From a bacterium (GTDB lineage Bacteria > B130-G9): 5,049 bases of DNA. Positions 1-5,049 of this stretch are shown one piece after another (the first letter of the stretch is position 1; each line of letters begins with the position of its first letter). The DNA lies in assembly GCA_021160245.1 (NCBI GenBank), contig JAGHCW010000130.1, forward strand, positions 1 through 5,049, in the 5' to 3' direction. Under the pieces are notes generated by a model. The model was not told the DNA's origin. It ran no database searches and saw only the letters and a list, made by a program, of their open reading frames with translations. Both the position numbers and the translations under genes were made by a program.

Positions 1-2993
1 CAGATATCTGTGTTCAGCGAACAGGTCCGACCGGAGAGCCGAAGAGGCGCAGAGAGCACGTTCATACTCGGCCATGAAACGCTTTTATTGCCCGCCGTGT
101 CCGTAGCCTGAACCTCCAGCCGATAGATGCCCGGAAAGAGAGTGCCCGGCATGTAGCCCTGGGAGAATGTGAAGATGCCATCGCCGGCAAGCGCGTCGTC
201 GAAGTTTCCGTCATCCTTTAGGAACATGCCAAGCGGCACGCCTCCATAGCAAAGCTCAACCTCATGCACGTCAGACAGGCCGTTCGGGTCAGCCACAAAC
301 GCCTGGATGCCGAGGTTGAAATATGCAGATGAATCGACTTCGGCATCGAAGAACCCGGCCGCATAGACGCTCGGCGCGAGCTTGTTGTTGAACATGATGA
401 TGTAAGCATCGCCGGCCGGTATCCCGACGAAGTTCGTGTAATTCTCGATAGGCGTCCATGTCCCACCGTCATTCTGATATATATCAAGGTCAATCGATGC
501 AAACTGCTTCGCTGTCAGCGTGTCCTCGTTGGAGAACACGATGTAATACACTTCATCGTATGGAATCTCGACCTCGAACTCATCTCCTCGCGAATCTTGC
601 CGCCGCTCGTACGCTGAGAATGCCTCGTCGTCGCTATAGCCCTTGAATTCATCCGAATTGAGGATGAAGAAATCAACGTTGCCAGCATCGAAATCCTTGT
701 TGCCAAATGAGTTCCTGCTGAGACTGTACTGCGTCTCGTACTCGACGTTGTATGAAACGGACAGCTTATAGGGATGCTCAGGAACCGTTGGAAACTCGAT
801 CGCCTCGATGTCCGGCAGTTGAGGCATTGTCCCTGAAACGACGAAGGTGTGTTCGTAGTCTTCGTCTGCAACAGTGTCCGTCAGGAGCGGGTCGGCTGGG
901 CGGCGAACCTCGCCAACTCGGCTTTTTACGTCGAACCAGAAGTCGCGGTTGTTGCCGAGCTCTATTATCACCTCGCCGGATGAGTTCGTATAGGATGTCA
1001 GCGGGCTTGCGAGCTGCCTCGCATCGTCGTTAAAGAGGTGAACGTACGTCGTGATTCGGGCGCAATCAACCGGATTGCCATTCGAGTCCTCGACCCGCGC
1101 GTGGAATCGACATACTTTGCTGAATCTGCACGTTGCATTTACCGGCCAAGTATCGCCTCGGTCCTGCCTGATGGCAGATAGCGCCTTGCCGCCGCCGTGG
1201 TCGTCATCCCAGAAGAGTCCCTGCCTCGCAATATCGGCATAGCCAACATTCCAGACGACCTGAAGGCCGCGCCAATCCTGGTCCCAGAACTCGCAAGACA
1301 CGTGGTCCCAAGTTGGGTTGTTCACGCCGGCTAGGGGCAAGAGGCACGCGCGACCGGCAGCGACTCCGATATACATAATCTCGCCGCAGTTGCCATTGTG
1401 CTCATAGCAGACCTGATTCGGTTGAATAGGCCGATTGCCTCTGGCCTGATACTCCATCATTCTACCTACCCAGTTCGAGATGACATCAACAGCCATCGAG
1501 TTCGGCTCAAAAGGCCGGTAACTCGGAAGCCGCACATCTACTTGACTGTTGTCCCAGACAAAAGTCGCGTTGCCAATTATGTCTGCCAGCACGGGGTATT
1601 TGTTGATTGACACATCGTCGATTGGCTCTGGACAGTACTCAAGTCCAAGTAGGTCGAGGCCGGCCCAAGAGTGCTCCGGATCGCAGGCCCCATGGAACTC
1701 AAATGTGCCACCGACAACCTTGACCCAGGCGTCGTATTTCTCAGTGAACTCCTCGCTGGCCATCTTCTCGTAGAATGCCCTGTCCTGATGCGACACAATT
1801 ATGATCTTTGAGAAGTAGTTCCAGTCATAAGCTATCATATCGTCTAGTGCCATCGTCCAGTGGAAAACGTTGTTCGAGTTTAGAATGTCCACGACAGGAT
1901 CGACAAGCGCAGCGTCGCCGGTGTTATCCACAACAACCACTTGGCTCTGGTAGTCGCCTCGAGGCGTCACAAGCTCGCCATTATAGCCGGCAGAGCGCAG
2001 CACCAGGTTCTCTAGCATGCCTCTCTTGCCGCTATTGTAGGCCGTTTCCACCTCCATCGTAGTGACAATCGTTCTACTGAGATTCCACGCGAACGTCAGG
2101 GCCACGGGCTTCCCGATTTCTGTGCCGCCAAGGATAATGCCATCCGGACACGTCTTCGTGCCTTCAGCAAGGTATCCGGTTGCTGTCGGCCCCCAGCCGT
2201 CGAGGTCTGACTCCTGCAACCTGTTGGGCTCTTTGGTCTCGAAGTATATGGAATAGTCATAGTCGGCTGAGGGGTTGTAGAGCAAATACTCGCGCCACAA
2301 GTAGCCATAAGTGCTCAGGCGGTCAGAGATAACGGGGCTCATCGACGGGGTCTCCTGACAGAGCTTGGGGTGAACCACGTAAAAGTAGTAGATGTCCCGT
2401 GGCAGCTCGAATTGAACCGTTGCGCCGCTGACCATCGTCGTGTAAATGATCGTAGAATAGTAATCCGGATCAACGCCAGCCTCGCCGTAGTCGATTATGT
2501 CGGCGTATGCTATTATGGGGTCAACCTGATATAAAACCTCTACGTTTAGAATATAGAGTTCCGGATCAGTCGCGCTCAGCACCGATTTCGACGAGTGAGC
2601 GATCGTGAAGGCCACCTCGTCGATGAGGCGCGGATCGGATATAGACAGTAGAAGCTGGCCATAGTCCTCCTGATCGTTCAAGGACATTCGAGAGAACATA
2701 TCGTATAGGTCCATTCGAAGCCAGTCGGGAACGATAGCGAGCGCCTCCTCTGCCGAAGGTGAGACGGACGCTCTGGCGGTCAGATTACACATATAGTCGC
2801 CGCTACCTGTGAGAGCGATGATCTGGTCAGGCTCCACGGGATCGGCCCAATTTATGTCATCAGCCTCTTCCGGAACGAAGACCGATTCCGGAAGAGGTCC
2901 CGACATCATCTCGTAAGGCTGCGGAGCCAACGGCTCGGCCTGCACGCCAATGGACAGCATCAGAATCGCGACAATGAGCACAACTCTAGGCAT
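1..2993 (-). CDS. Gene A: secreted multidomain protein with transglutaminase-like core (C-terminus cut by window edge)
   Basis: The frame is open for 997 codons from ATG 2993-2991 to the left edge, with no stop. The start is supported by GAGG seven bases upstream and by a signal peptide at residues 1-19. Visible order: a helical stretch near 75-160 (DEVAFTIAH at 125-133); an aromatic-rich region around 195-240 (YYFYVVHPKL); an alpha/beta domain at about 348-490 resembling glutamine-amidotransferase/ThuA-like folds; a transglutaminase/PNGase-like core at about 505-585 with C536 in GNCGE and H564 in WDHV; a transthyretin/Big-like Ig domain at about 610-700 (DSNGNPVDC at 636-644); a PPC-like beta-sandwich at about 730-860 (VDFFIL from 773, YYIVFSN at 816-822); and an Ig-like repeat at 873-979. 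By comparison with gene B, about 115 residues lie beyond the window. No transmembrane helix follows the signal peptide. The Cys and His suggest a thiol hydrolase or acyltransferase, but the substrate is unknown and the domain could also be a non-catalytic binding fold. The paralogue lies directly upstream. Confidence 0.93.
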   Translation of the reverse strand, partial: MPRVVLIVAILMLSIGVQAEPLAPQPYEMMSGPLPESVFVPEEADDINWADPVEPDQIIALTGSGDYMCNLTARASVSPSAEEALAIVPDWLRMDLYDMFSRMSLNDQEDYGQLLLSISDPRLIDEVAFTIAHSSKSVLSATDPELYILNVEVLYQVDPIIAYADIIDYGEAGVDPDYYSTIIYTTMVSGATVQFELPRDIYYFYVVHPKLCQETPSMSPVISDRLSTYGYLWREYLLYNPSADYDYSIYFETKEPNRLQESDLDGWGPTATGYLAEGTKTCPDGIILGGTEIGKPVALTFAWNLSRTIVTTMEVETAYNSGKRGMLENLVLRSAGYNGELVTPRGDYQSQVVVVDNTGDAALVDPVVDILNSNNVFHWTMALDDMIAYDWNYFSKIIIVSHQDRAFYEKMASEEFTEKYDAWVKVVGGTFEFHGACDPEHSWAGLDLLGLEYCPEPIDDVSINKYPVLADIIGNATFVWDNSQVDVRLPSYRPFEPNSMAVDVISNWVGRMMEYQARGNRPIQPNQVCYEHNGNCGEIMYIGVAAGRACLLPLAGVNNPTWDHVSCEFWDQDWRGLQVVWNVGYADIARQGLFWDDDHGGGKALSAIRQDRGDTWPVNATCRFSKVCRFHARVEDSNGNPVDCARITTYVHLFNDDARQLASPLTSYTNSSGEVIIELGNNRDFWFDVKSRVGEVRRPADPLLTDTVADEDYEHTFVVSGTMPQLPDIEAIEFPTVPEHPYKLSVSYNVEYETQYSLSRNSFGNKDFDAGNVDFFILNSDEFKGYSDDEAFSAYERRQDSRGDEFEVEIPYDEVYYIVFSNEDTLTAKQFASIDLDIYQNDGGTWTPIENYTNFVGIPAGDAYIIMFNNKLAPSVYAAGFFDAEVDSSAYFNLGIQAFVADPNGLSDVHEVELCYGGVPLGMFLKDDGNFDDALAGDGIFTFSQGYMPGTLFPGIYRLEVQATDTAGNKSVSWPSMNVLSAPLRLSGRTCSLNTDI
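57..377 (-). repeat. Ig-like C-terminal repeat, first unit in gene A
   Basis: Residues 873-979 (107 residues) run from APSVYAAGFF to WPSMNV. The unit carries FVADPNGL, VELCYGG, FLKDDG (ending G929) and AGDGIFTF (936-943). By hand count it is nearly four-fifths identical to the first unit of gene B. A second unit is expected left of the window edge. Confidence 0.8.
1239..1409 (-). other. Transglutaminase/PNGase-like catalytic core in gene A (residues 529-585)
   Basis: The segment has the order expected of this superfamily. GNCGEI carries the candidate nucleophile C536; a helix follows with R548 and a LPLAGV turn, like the usual GxPaR segment; then WDHV supplies H564, followed by CEFW and DW. 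The Cys-His spacing is 28, close to that of peptide-N-glycanases. The usual third residue, Asp after the next Trp-containing strand, is not evident; N582 (WNVG) or D573 are the nearest conserved candidates. Assignment by eye from motifs. Confidence 0.72.
1524..1952 (-). other. Putative glutamine-amidotransferase/ThuA-like domain in gene A (about residues 348-490)
   Basis: The segment alternates hydrophobic strands and helices. It begins with QVVVVDNTGD (near 351-360), continues with a helix, then KIIIVSHQD (396-404), a helix (FYEKMASEEF), and VVGGTFEFHGAC (to 437). The pattern of strand, 'fy..ya' helix and 'aGG.ieFhga' is what I associate with class I amidotransferase-like flavodoxin folds found in secreted bacterial proteins. 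No convincing nucleophile elbow is seen: H402 takes the place of a Cys after the third strand. It may be a binding or structural domain. The equivalent part of gene B is outside the window. Confidence 0.45.
2937..2993 (-). other. Sec signal peptide of gene A
   Basis: Residues 1-19 have a short basic n-region (MPR), a hydrophobic core (VVLIVAILMLSIGV) and a small-residue cleavage motif VQA followed by E20. This fits signal peptidase I cleavage between A19 and E20. There is no Cys at +1, so it is not a lipoprotein. It implies export of gene A product and, by homology, of gene B product. Confidence 0.85.
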
Positions 2994-3000
2994 CTTTCTT

Positions 3001-3004
3001 CCTC
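3001..3004 (-). promoter_or_regulatory. Ribosome binding site of gene A
   Basis: The minus strand reads GAGG, then seven bases, then ATG at 2993-2991. The spacing and purine-rich context (GAGGAAGAAAG) suit a Shine-Dalgarno site and fix this start. An overlapping out-of-frame ATG (3006-3004) covers part of the site. Confidence 0.75.
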
Positions 3005-3020
3005 ATTTTTCTGGGTCGAG

Positions 3021-3042
3021 CCCACCATCTTGAACTGGTGGG
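3021..3042 (-). promoter_or_regulatory. Hairpin in the 5' leader of gene A
   Basis: CCCACCA (3021-3027) and TGGTGGG (3036-3042) form a perfect 7-bp stem with an 8-base loop; a G-T pair could extend it. It lies between the promoter candidate and the Shine-Dalgarno site, 16 bases upstream of the latter on the mRNA. A competing shorter stem, TGGG 3012-3015 with CCCA 3021-3024, uses the same bases and sits closer to the ribosome site. There is no T-tract, so it is not a standard intrinsic terminator. A role in mRNA stability or translation is inference only. Confidence 0.4.
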
Positions 3043-3081
3043 TAGTGATAATCCGAACTCATAGAACGTACATCTTGTCCA

Positions 3082-3108
3082 AATATATCAAAGCCCCGCG
3101 CATTTCAA
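3082..3108 (-). promoter_or_regulatory. Weak sigma70-like promoter candidate for gene A
   Basis: On the minus strand TTGAAA (3108-3103) is followed after 15 bases by TATATT (3087-3082). Both hexamers are close to consensus but the spacing is short. The site would place transcription start near 3075, giving a leader of about 80 bases that includes the hairpin. It is the best match I found by eye in the intergenic gap, and could be chance in an AT-rich patch. Confidence 0.25.
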
Positions 3109-3220
3109 GCTCATTGGGTAGGGGTAGGAAGTAGGCGACGCAGATCGATCAACCAGCCAGCTCCTAACTCCAGATTCTAGCCAAAGGCTCGGGACTCAGT
3201 ACGACGCGAATTCGGATGGC

Positions 3221-5049
3221 CTAGCTCACAGTAAAATACGGATATCTGGCGCTTGAGTTTCCTGACTTGTCGAATGCCACAATTTCGAGCGTCATGGCGC
3301 CCGATTGTATGCCGCCCGGCATGAATGTTTGGAACGTGAATATGCCGTCGCCCGCGTGATCATCGCCATCTGCGCCGTCGTCGTGCAGGAATTGGCCAGT
3401 CGGGATGCCGCCCTCCAGGAATAGTTCCACGCGGTCGATATCTGATAAGCCGTCAGGGTCGTTCACGTAAGCGATGATGCGAACCATGTCGCCCGTTTGG
3501 ACGGTGTCGTGGCCAAAGAAGCCGCCGGCGAGTATTACTGGCGCGGAATAGGCCGTTGCGGGCGGCTGCCAGAGCTCCGTGTTCGTCGAATAGATCGGCC
3601 TAGAGAGCATCAAAGATGTCGAGTTGACGTTTAGGTATGGCCACGAGGCGCTCCTGTTGCCGGCCATATCCGTCGCCAGTATCTCCAGCCGATAGACGCC
3701 GGGATCGAGCGCGCGGGGCATGTAGGATTTTGAGAATGTGAAGATGCCGTCCCCGGCAATCGAGTCGTCTGACCTCCCGTCATCTTTCAGGAACATACCA
3801 AGCGGCACGCCTCCGTAACACAGCTCGACATCGCCCACATCGTGCAGCCCGTTCGGGTCGGCCACAAACGCCTGAATGCCGAGCTCGAAATCGCTCGATG
3901 AGTCCACTTCGGCATTGAAAAAGCCGGCAGCATAAACACTCGGCGCGAACCTGTTATTGAGCATGATGACATAGGACTCCTGAGCCGGAATCCCGACGAC
4001 GTTCGAGTAGTCCTCAGCAAGAACCCATGCGCCGTTGTCGTTTTCGAAGACCGAGACGGCGATCGATACGAATTGCTTGGCAAGAAGAGTATCCTCATTT
4101 GAAAAGACGATGTAGTATAGGCCATCATCAGGAATATGAACGTCAAACTCATCCCCTCGGCAGTCCGCTCTCCATTCGTAGGCTGAGAAGGGCCCGCCCT
4201 CGTCATACTTGCGGAAGTTGTCCGCGTCCAAGATGAAGAAATCGACGTTGGCGGTCTCCTCCTTCTTCTCTGCGAATGTCAGCCCAGTCAAGCTGTACAA
4301 CATCTCATAATCAGCGCTGAATGAGATGTGCAGCTTATATGAGGGCTCTGGGACTGACGGGAACTCCATCGCATCGATCTCAGGAAGCTGCGGAACGGTC
4401 TGCGCCTCAATCGTCCAGGTGTTGCTATAATTCTCGCCCTCCTGAGTATCCGTCAAGAGCTGCTCCCTTGAGGCGTTGCCAATCCTGCTCTTGACATCAA
4501 ACCAGTAGTCGCGATGATCGCCCAGGTCTATCACCACCTGGCCCGATGAATCGGTGTATGCGCAAATCGGGCTATCCAATCTCTCGCTGGGCTTGTTCAT
4601 CCAGCGCACCCAAGCACGAACCATCGCACAATCAACGGGATTGCCTTTCGTGTCCTGTACCTTCGCAAGAAAGCGGCAGGATTTGCTGAATCGGGCAGTG
4701 GCATTCACAGGAAAGCTATCGCCTCGGTCCTGTTCGATCGCAGATAGGTCTCTGGTTCCGCCGTAGTCCTTGTCATTCAGGACCTTTTGATCCGCTATCA
4801 TGGAGGTTCCCACGTTGAAGCCGACCTGGTATCCATACCAGTCGTGCTCCCAGAACTCGCAAGTTACGTGGTCCCACGATTTGTTGTTCACGCCCGCGGT
4901 CGGCAGCATGCAAGTTCTGGCAGCAGCCTGAAGTATGTATCGTATCTCGCCGCAGTTGCCGTCGTGCTCAAAGCAGACCTGGTTGGGCTGACTCGGGCGA
5001 CTGCCTCTCGCCCGAAAGTTAATCATCCTGGAGGTCCAGTTGGAGATAA
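3221..5049 (-). CDS. Gene B: paralogue of gene A, transglutaminase-like secreted protein (N-terminus cut by window edge)
   Basis: The frame is open from the right edge to TAG at 3223-3221, giving 608 whole codons. The first in-window Met (5026-5024) is not the start: the seven codons before it read ISNWTSR and align with ISNWVGR at residue 505 of gene A. About 500 N-terminal residues, including any signal peptide, therefore probably lie outside. Numbered from that Met, the visible parts are: transglutaminase/PNGase-like core (C25 in GNCGE, H53 in WDHV, spacing 28 as in gene A); Ig-like domain with DTKGNPVDC; PPC-like beta-sandwich (VDFFIL, YYIVFSNED); and two Ig-like repeats at 361-467 and 495-601, each with a DDG...AGDG loop. 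The protein ends one residue after the last beta-strand (YPYFTVS). There is no hydrophobic tail, LPXTG or PEP-CTERM motif, so it is not anchored through its C-terminus in any way I recognise. Its function is probably like that of gene A, with a possibly different substrate. Expression could be joint with gene A or separate. Confidence 0.93.
   Translation of the reverse strand, partial: ISNWTSRMINFRARGSRPSQPNQVCFEHDGNCGEIRYILQAAARTCMLPTAGVNNKSWDHVTCEFWEHDWYGYQVGFNVGTSMIADQKVLNDKDYGGTRDLSAIEQDRGDSFPVNATARFSKSCRFLAKVQDTKGNPVDCAMVRAWVRWMNKPSERLDSPICAYTDSSGQVVIDLGDHRDYWFDVKSRIGNASREQLLTDTQEGENYSNTWTIEAQTVPQLPEIDAMEFPSVPEPSYKLHISFSADYEMLYSLTGLTFAEKKEETANVDFFILDADNFRKYDEGGPFSAYEWRADCRGDEFDVHIPDDGLYYIVFSNEDTLLAKQFVSIAVSVFENDNGAWVLAEDYSNVVGIPAQESYVIMLNNRFAPSVYAAGFFNAEVDSSSDFELGIQAFVADPNGLHDVGDVELCYGGVPLGMFLKDDGRSDDSIAGDGIFTFSKSYMPRALDPGVYRLEILATDMAGNRSASWPYLNVNSTSLMLSRPIYSTNTELWQPPATAYSAPVILAGGFFGHDTVQTGDMVRIIAYVNDPDGLSDIDRVELFLEGGIPTGQFLHDDGADGDDHAGDGIFTFQTFMPGGIQSGAMTLEIVAFDKSGNSSARYPYFTVS
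3224..3544 (-). repeat. Ig-like C-terminal repeat, second unit in gene B
   Basis: Residues 495-601, 107 residues, end at the protein C-terminus apart from a final Ser. The unit shares APV, AGGFF, DPDGLSD, VEL, FLHDDG, AGDGIFTF, MP, LEI and GNSSA with the first unit, about 45% identity by hand count. The loop is still more acidic (DDGADGDDHAGDG). It is more distant from the first units of A and B than these are from each other. Confidence 0.8.
3626..3946 (-). repeat. Ig-like C-terminal repeat, first unit in gene B
   Basis: Residues 361-467 from Met 5026, 107 residues, with DDG at 415-417 followed by AGDGIFTF. Acidic residues alternate through the loop (DDGRSDDSIAGDG), which suggests metal binding, probably calcium, though this is inference. 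A linker of about 27 residues rich in Ser, Thr and Pro separates it from the second unit. Confidence 0.8.
4805..4975 (-). other. Transglutaminase/PNGase-like catalytic core in gene B
   Basis: This is the paralogous core, residues 18-74 counted from Met 5026. C25 (codon 4954-4952) and H53 (codon 4870-4868) keep the same 28-residue spacing, in GNCGEI and WDHVTCEFW. The candidate third residue is again Asn (N71, FNVG). Extra cysteines C18, C39 and C56 are shared with gene A and could form disulfides after export. Retention of the motif in both copies argues that the site is functional. Confidence 0.72.

Follow-up and report, generated by a model that had tools for sequence, protein, structure and literature searches.

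The window, a stretch of 5,049 bp that makes up the entire contig C49 of the metagenome-assembled genome (MAG) G000 of Candidatus Coatesbacteria, carries parts of two neighbouring genes, referred to as A and B. Our best explanation, held as a whole with moderate confidence, is that they belong to a tandem array of at least three genes, duplicated long ago, in a Coatesbacteria-specific branch, and that they encode secreted, surface-held members of the transglutaminase/PNGase superfamily with Cys-His acyl-enzyme chemistry. By itself, the finding amounts to a tandem expansion, specific to this lineage, within a family of secreted transglutaminase-fold proteins. In the proposed mechanism, Sec would export the proteins through the inner membrane, and a pair of C-terminal repeats would deliver them to, or hold them at, the cell surface, replacing the tail of the type IX secretion system (T9SS). 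The Cys-His pair would attack an extracellular (glyco)protein at the side chain of a Gln or Asn to form an acyl-enzyme, and the (glyco)protein would then be crosslinked to an amine or hydrolysed. The copies would be kept while their catalytic and N-terminal parts diverge, a pattern suggestive of different targets, and gene conversion between neighbours would keep the 3' tag region alike. Potentially more important is the tag swap: the catalytic and N-terminal modules that carry a T9SS tail in several phyla have another tag in a phylum apparently without T9SS. If true, it would offer a direct means of discovering an export or anchoring route not yet recognised; should the tag be only structural, the case reduces to an ordinary surface-protein expansion specific to the lineage.

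G000 is a fragmentary bin of 3.43 Mb in 244 contigs, and was compared with the other Coatesbacteria genomes (four in total). Both genes are cut by the contig ends, as the window is an entire contig (Table 1). They are 61% identical in amino acid sequence (299/494 positions, BLASTP E=0), the aligned stretches covering 493 codons in A and 492 in B, and have an identical domain order wherever both are visible. Hence, the two same-strand paralogues 227 bp apart with one net codon of length change, as described in an earlier note made from the window alone, are confirmed. The length of about 1,100 residues given there also agrees with the intact family members of the same and related genomes, which span 1,118–1,177 aa from stop to stop, and the signal-peptide-like start together with a transglutaminase/PNGase-type core supports its description of putatively secreted, transglutaminase-like proteins. 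Neither a sigma-70-like promoter nor an intrinsic terminator was found in the 227-bp spacer, a consensus search that is uninformative for the phylum Coatesbacteria. An AlphaFold2 model of A, built on 30 sequences, has a mean pLDDT of 73; the N-terminal, core, and beta domains reach ca. 80–95, while the linker and C-terminal repeat are poorly modelled. Literature searches found no published work on these proteins.

Table 1. Features of genes A and B and of the ends of the 5,049-bp window
Feature	Position	Strand	Remark
Gene A	3..2993	-	ATG start; 997 aa visible; 3' end missing (low end of contig)
Gene B	3221..5047	-	608 aa visible; 5' end missing (high end of contig); TAG stop
Spacer, B stop to A start	2994..3220	.	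exactly 227 bp
127-bp overlap	1..127	.	identical to C51:1-127; de Bruijn overlap at repeat node, join to third gene
Signal-peptide-like segment of A, MPRVVLIVAILMLSIGVQAE	2934..2993	-	from sequence; helix 2-17 in model; cleavage site inferred
N-terminal domain of A, residues 67-240	2274..2795	-	conserved in all phyla; mostly helical; pLDDT ~90
Inserted alpha/beta domain of A, residues 246-470	1584..2258	-	seen only in Coatesbacteria; best fold match IMPa residues 85-300
Transglutaminase/PNGase-type core of A, residues 466-595	1209..1598	-	
Cys536 of A (GNCGE), predicted catalytic	1386..1388	-	29/29 in family alignment
His564 of A (DHV), predicted catalytic	1302..1304	-	29/29 in family alignment
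Gln578 of A, inferred third catalytic position	1260..1262	-	Asp in PNGase; hand placement
Ig/transthyretin-like beta domain of A, residues 626-722	828..1118	-	
Second beta-rich domain of A, residues 724-870	384..824	-	pLDDT ~90
First C-terminal repeat of A, choice-of-anchor-X-like	57..377	-	
Transglutaminase core of B, visible part	4724..5047	-	
Cys of B, predicted catalytic, residue 32 of visible part	4952..4954	-	
His of B, predicted catalytic, residue 60 of visible part	4868..4870	-	
Gln at third position of B, residue 74 of visible part	4826..4828	-	
First C-terminal repeat of B	3623..3946	-	
Last C-terminal repeat of B	3224..3544	-	ends at stop codon (...YPYFTVS*)

The family extends beyond the phylum. 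GTDB genomes were scanned with a tight alignment, a scan with a single protein having given no match, and 31 loci were found, three in Coatesbacteria and 28 in Zixibacteria, WOR-3/Stahlbacteria, Fermentibacteria, Eisenbacteria, Bacteroidetes, Deltaproteobacteria, and others. Each locus has one family gene, with the match at L121 split over two adjoining ORFs. The T9SS sorting domain TIGR04183 occurs in 20 of the 30 members scanned, and most relatives outside Coatesbacteria end in it. These T9SS-tailed relatives (in Zixibacteria, WOR-3/Stahlbacteria, Fermentibacteria, and other candidate phyla), which belong to an unnamed family, share with the Coatesbacteria form the N-terminal domain, the Cys/His core, and the beta domains that follow. 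Different from the Coatesbacteria form, they mostly end in Por_Secre_tail, occur as a single copy per locus, and lack profile positions ca. 257–471, an insert of ca. 215–220 residues. Modelled alone, the insert is an alpha/beta domain whose predicted fold has its best match in the N-terminal alpha/beta region of IMPa, the O-glycopeptidase of P. aeruginosa (Z 8.4 over 183 residues with 12% identity; the top rows are all IMPa). The likeness to IMPa is suggestive only, because the next unrelated match has a Z of 7.1; a sequence match between insert and IMPa was not found, and the Coatesbacteria proteins, which would have only the predicted fold in common with IMPa, carry no M60 peptidase domain. 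Tad2-like matches of the insert in PDB and Pfam (E 0.007 and 0.035) were taken as chance, being below the cut-off and with the fold search pointing elsewhere. Beyond what the earlier note could see lie the T9SS-tailed relatives in other phyla, the insert, and a genome-wide C-terminal tag.

In the Coatesbacteria form, two choice-of-anchor-X-like repeats stand where the homologues have the T9SS tail. Gene B matches choice-of-anchor X (NF041940) with 34.9 bits against a cut-off of 25, and the single visible copy of gene A falls below it at 18.2. The motif LxDDGxxGDxxAGDG is shared with NF041940; the difference is that the Coatesbacteria repeat itself is the C-terminus and ends at the stop codon. 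We found the repeat in 25 ORFs of the G000 contigs examined, a count that includes separate fragments of array genes. In all 22 strong, stop-containing ORFs, the last repeat ends 0–2 residues before the stop; these ORFs have different N-terminal parts, and most share a P-Y/F-x-x-V-like end. The remaining three are the contig-truncated A, its likewise truncated array neighbour Y (see below), and a 906-aa ORF on C20 whose last residues resemble the tag but whose weak repeat match ends 35 residues short of the stop. Judged by a simple hydrophobicity rule, the start of most complete repeat-bearing ORFs is signal-peptide-like. The C-terminal tag is common to the array proteins and ca. 18 other, mostly secreted, G000 proteins. 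Two adjacent same-strand ORFs of 1264 and 1142 aa (L159:4278-11498, on G000:C17) both end in the repeat and are a possible tagged tandem. Outside Coatesbacteria, any repeat match at E 1e-5 was seen in 13 of 189 genomes. In G088, which belongs to another phylum, three unrelated proteins (L173, L174, and L175) end in the repeat with WPYLTI or WPNFTI at the stop.

The T9SS itself appears to be missing from the phylum. SprA_N was matched in none of the four Coatesbacteria genomes in a first run, in which the controls were also negative; repeated on nine homologue-bearing genomes, the search was positive in all seven non-Coatesbacteria genomes and negative in both Coatesbacteria, the bins being incomplete. 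TIGR04183, which in homologues holds the same position and presumed role as the repeat pair, is matched nowhere in G000 and once in the phylum. This sole match (G003:C226:3233-3472, in a genome 83% complete) could be a contamination or a remnant. A C-terminal sorting domain that would mark A and B as T9SS cargo was not found; at the end of B stand choice-of-anchor-X-like repeats. Most simply read, the repeat pair substitutes for the T9SS tail, and the C-terminal tag may be an unrecognised surface-sorting signal. The full form of this reading, in which Coatesbacteria lost or never had T9SS, the repeat-pair tag routes about two dozen large proteins, via an unrecognised translocon, to the surface, and the tandem transglutaminase-like proteins are cargo with a swapped tag, is tentative, and we regard it as somewhat doubtful. 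The C-terminal repeats may instead be only structural, which would count against our best explanation: they would be ordinary Ig-like spacer domains, with a terminal position unrelated to sorting. This alternative is quite possible, if a little short of probable. The repeats do resemble Big_13 and choice-of-anchor X domains, and an internal copy precedes the last repeat in most of the proteins; spacer domains, however, do not readily account for strong closed ORFs with varied N-terminal parts that all stop within two residues of the repeat, mostly with a similar end, or for the proteins of G088 that end likewise.

The assignment of the core rests on profile and fold matches. Transglut_core (PF01841) matches 23 of the 30 family members with a best E of 4e-8, and scores 18.7 bits for A and 17.9 for B, below the curated 23-bit cut-off. 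The core profile matches PNGase in the PDB (E 2e-3), which is the best solved relative by sequence. Searched against structures, the predicted core of A aligns with TG2/FXIII (VIA-align Z 11.5, 182 residues, 2.9 Å) and with yeast PNGase 3esw (Z 9.4). The family sits near the transglutaminase/PNGase superfamily. It has the same core fold as PNGase (PDB 2f4m/1x3w) and animal TG2/FXIII and the same order of Cys, His, and third residue, but differs from them in having Gln or Glu for Asp, in its extracellular multidomain bacterial context, and in its weak sequence similarity. At the third position, which was inferred from a hand alignment to the PNGase Asp, the family has 14 Gln, 15 Glu, and no Asp. 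Most likely, the proteins work at the surface as cysteine acyl-transferases or hydrolases, with an extracellular (glyco)protein as their target; the sequence gives no choice between crosslinking and hydrolysis.

An inactive protein with a purely structural role is possible given the Gln at the third residue, and would count against our best explanation. The copies would then be a catalytically dead scaffold or adhesin using the transglutaminase fold for binding, like erythrocyte protein 4.2, a known inactive transglutaminase. We consider this unlikely, but it is a serious rival because the third position is Gln, and it is so in both A and B; moreover, protein 4.2 is among the structural matches (Z 10.5), and the proteins contain many beta domains. 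Against it, Cys and His are each invariant in 29 of 29 aligned members across several phyla, which is unexpected if catalysis had been lost. Papain-type enzymes also function with an amide as the third residue.

The array reaches beyond the window, in line with the earlier suggestion that it shows the end of a longer one. Extension of the contig led to a third gene through exact end matches: the first 127 bp of C49 are identical to the first 127 bp of C51, and the last 127 bp of C51 to the last 127 bp of C230, an overlap length typical of a de Bruijn k-mer. On C51, the 83-residue tail of an upstream family gene comes first, followed by Y, a nearly full gene; C230 opens on its minus strand with an 83-residue family tail. 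The end overlaps define a repeat node that C49 and C51 enter and C51 and C230 leave, and so leave a single linear path, C49 > repeat > C51 > repeat > C230. By this contig-overlap logic, the array would run B, A, Y and comprise at least three genes, with A ending in the tail on C51 and Y in that on C230. In principle, the path could change with contigs from outside the bin. The orthologue of Y in a second genus, G2C159, also sits behind a family-gene tail. It is improbable that the tandem is an ordinary one of two genes and the C51 and C230 overlaps reflect a strain mixture: the source is a MAG and the copy-specific sequence of C51 could come from another strain, but C51 has a family tail upstream of its own gene, as does the orthologue in another genus, and enters and leaves the same repeat node, so that only the three-gene path uses each contig once.

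The start of gene B lies outside the window. Another contig, C100, ends inside residue ca. 303 of a further family copy, and this N-terminal piece and gene B share G1C91 as the closest protein (68% and 77% identity, with tree support of 87/84 and 96/97, respectively). For this reason, C100 very probably holds the start of B. The view that B has the N-terminal domains of A is thereby very probable, with ca. 600 bp between the two pieces unseen. Just upstream of the B orthologue in a third genus lies a 53-codon remnant (L176:3224-3382, on G001:C91) that joins the linker to the last third of the C-terminal repeat and is apparently a decayed tandem family gene.

The duplications are old. Between A and B, dN is 0.30 and dS is 1.63, giving a dN/dS of ca. 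0.18 with dS close to saturation. This comparison, proposed in the earlier note, supports its claim that the copies were kept by selection, here purifying; its reading of a whole-gene duplication is supported as well. An assembly duplication was rejected, as A and B differ at 39% of residues with a near-saturated dS of ca. 1.6. In the tree, B groups with G1C91 and Y with G2C159 (100/100), and such trees place the duplications before the split of the genera. The tandem arrangement is also old, because G2C159 follows a family tail in the second genus and a decayed tail stands upstream of the third-genus B orthologue. The 3' ends tell of a later event. At the DNA level, A and Y are 100% identical over residues 961–997, 83% over 841–880, and ca. 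50–70% in most other parts, and their presumed tails share 93% amino acid identity, compared with ca. 55% overall. Recent gene conversion at the 3' ends of A and Y is the best reading of this pattern, and it explains why the assembly broke there. If one shared machinery requires a fitting tag, conversion confined to the tag region, with the catalytic regions diverging, is to be expected.

A phage or viral origin was rejected, since no relatives were found in IMG/VR and the neighbouring genes carry no phage sign. Aside from the three genes of the array, G000 has family genes on C25, C55, and C124, six in total. The copies on C25 (L070) and C55 (L013) adjoin housekeeping genes; a MutL-like ORF lies near the C25 copy, and the downstream neighbours of the C55 copy are kept in three relatives.
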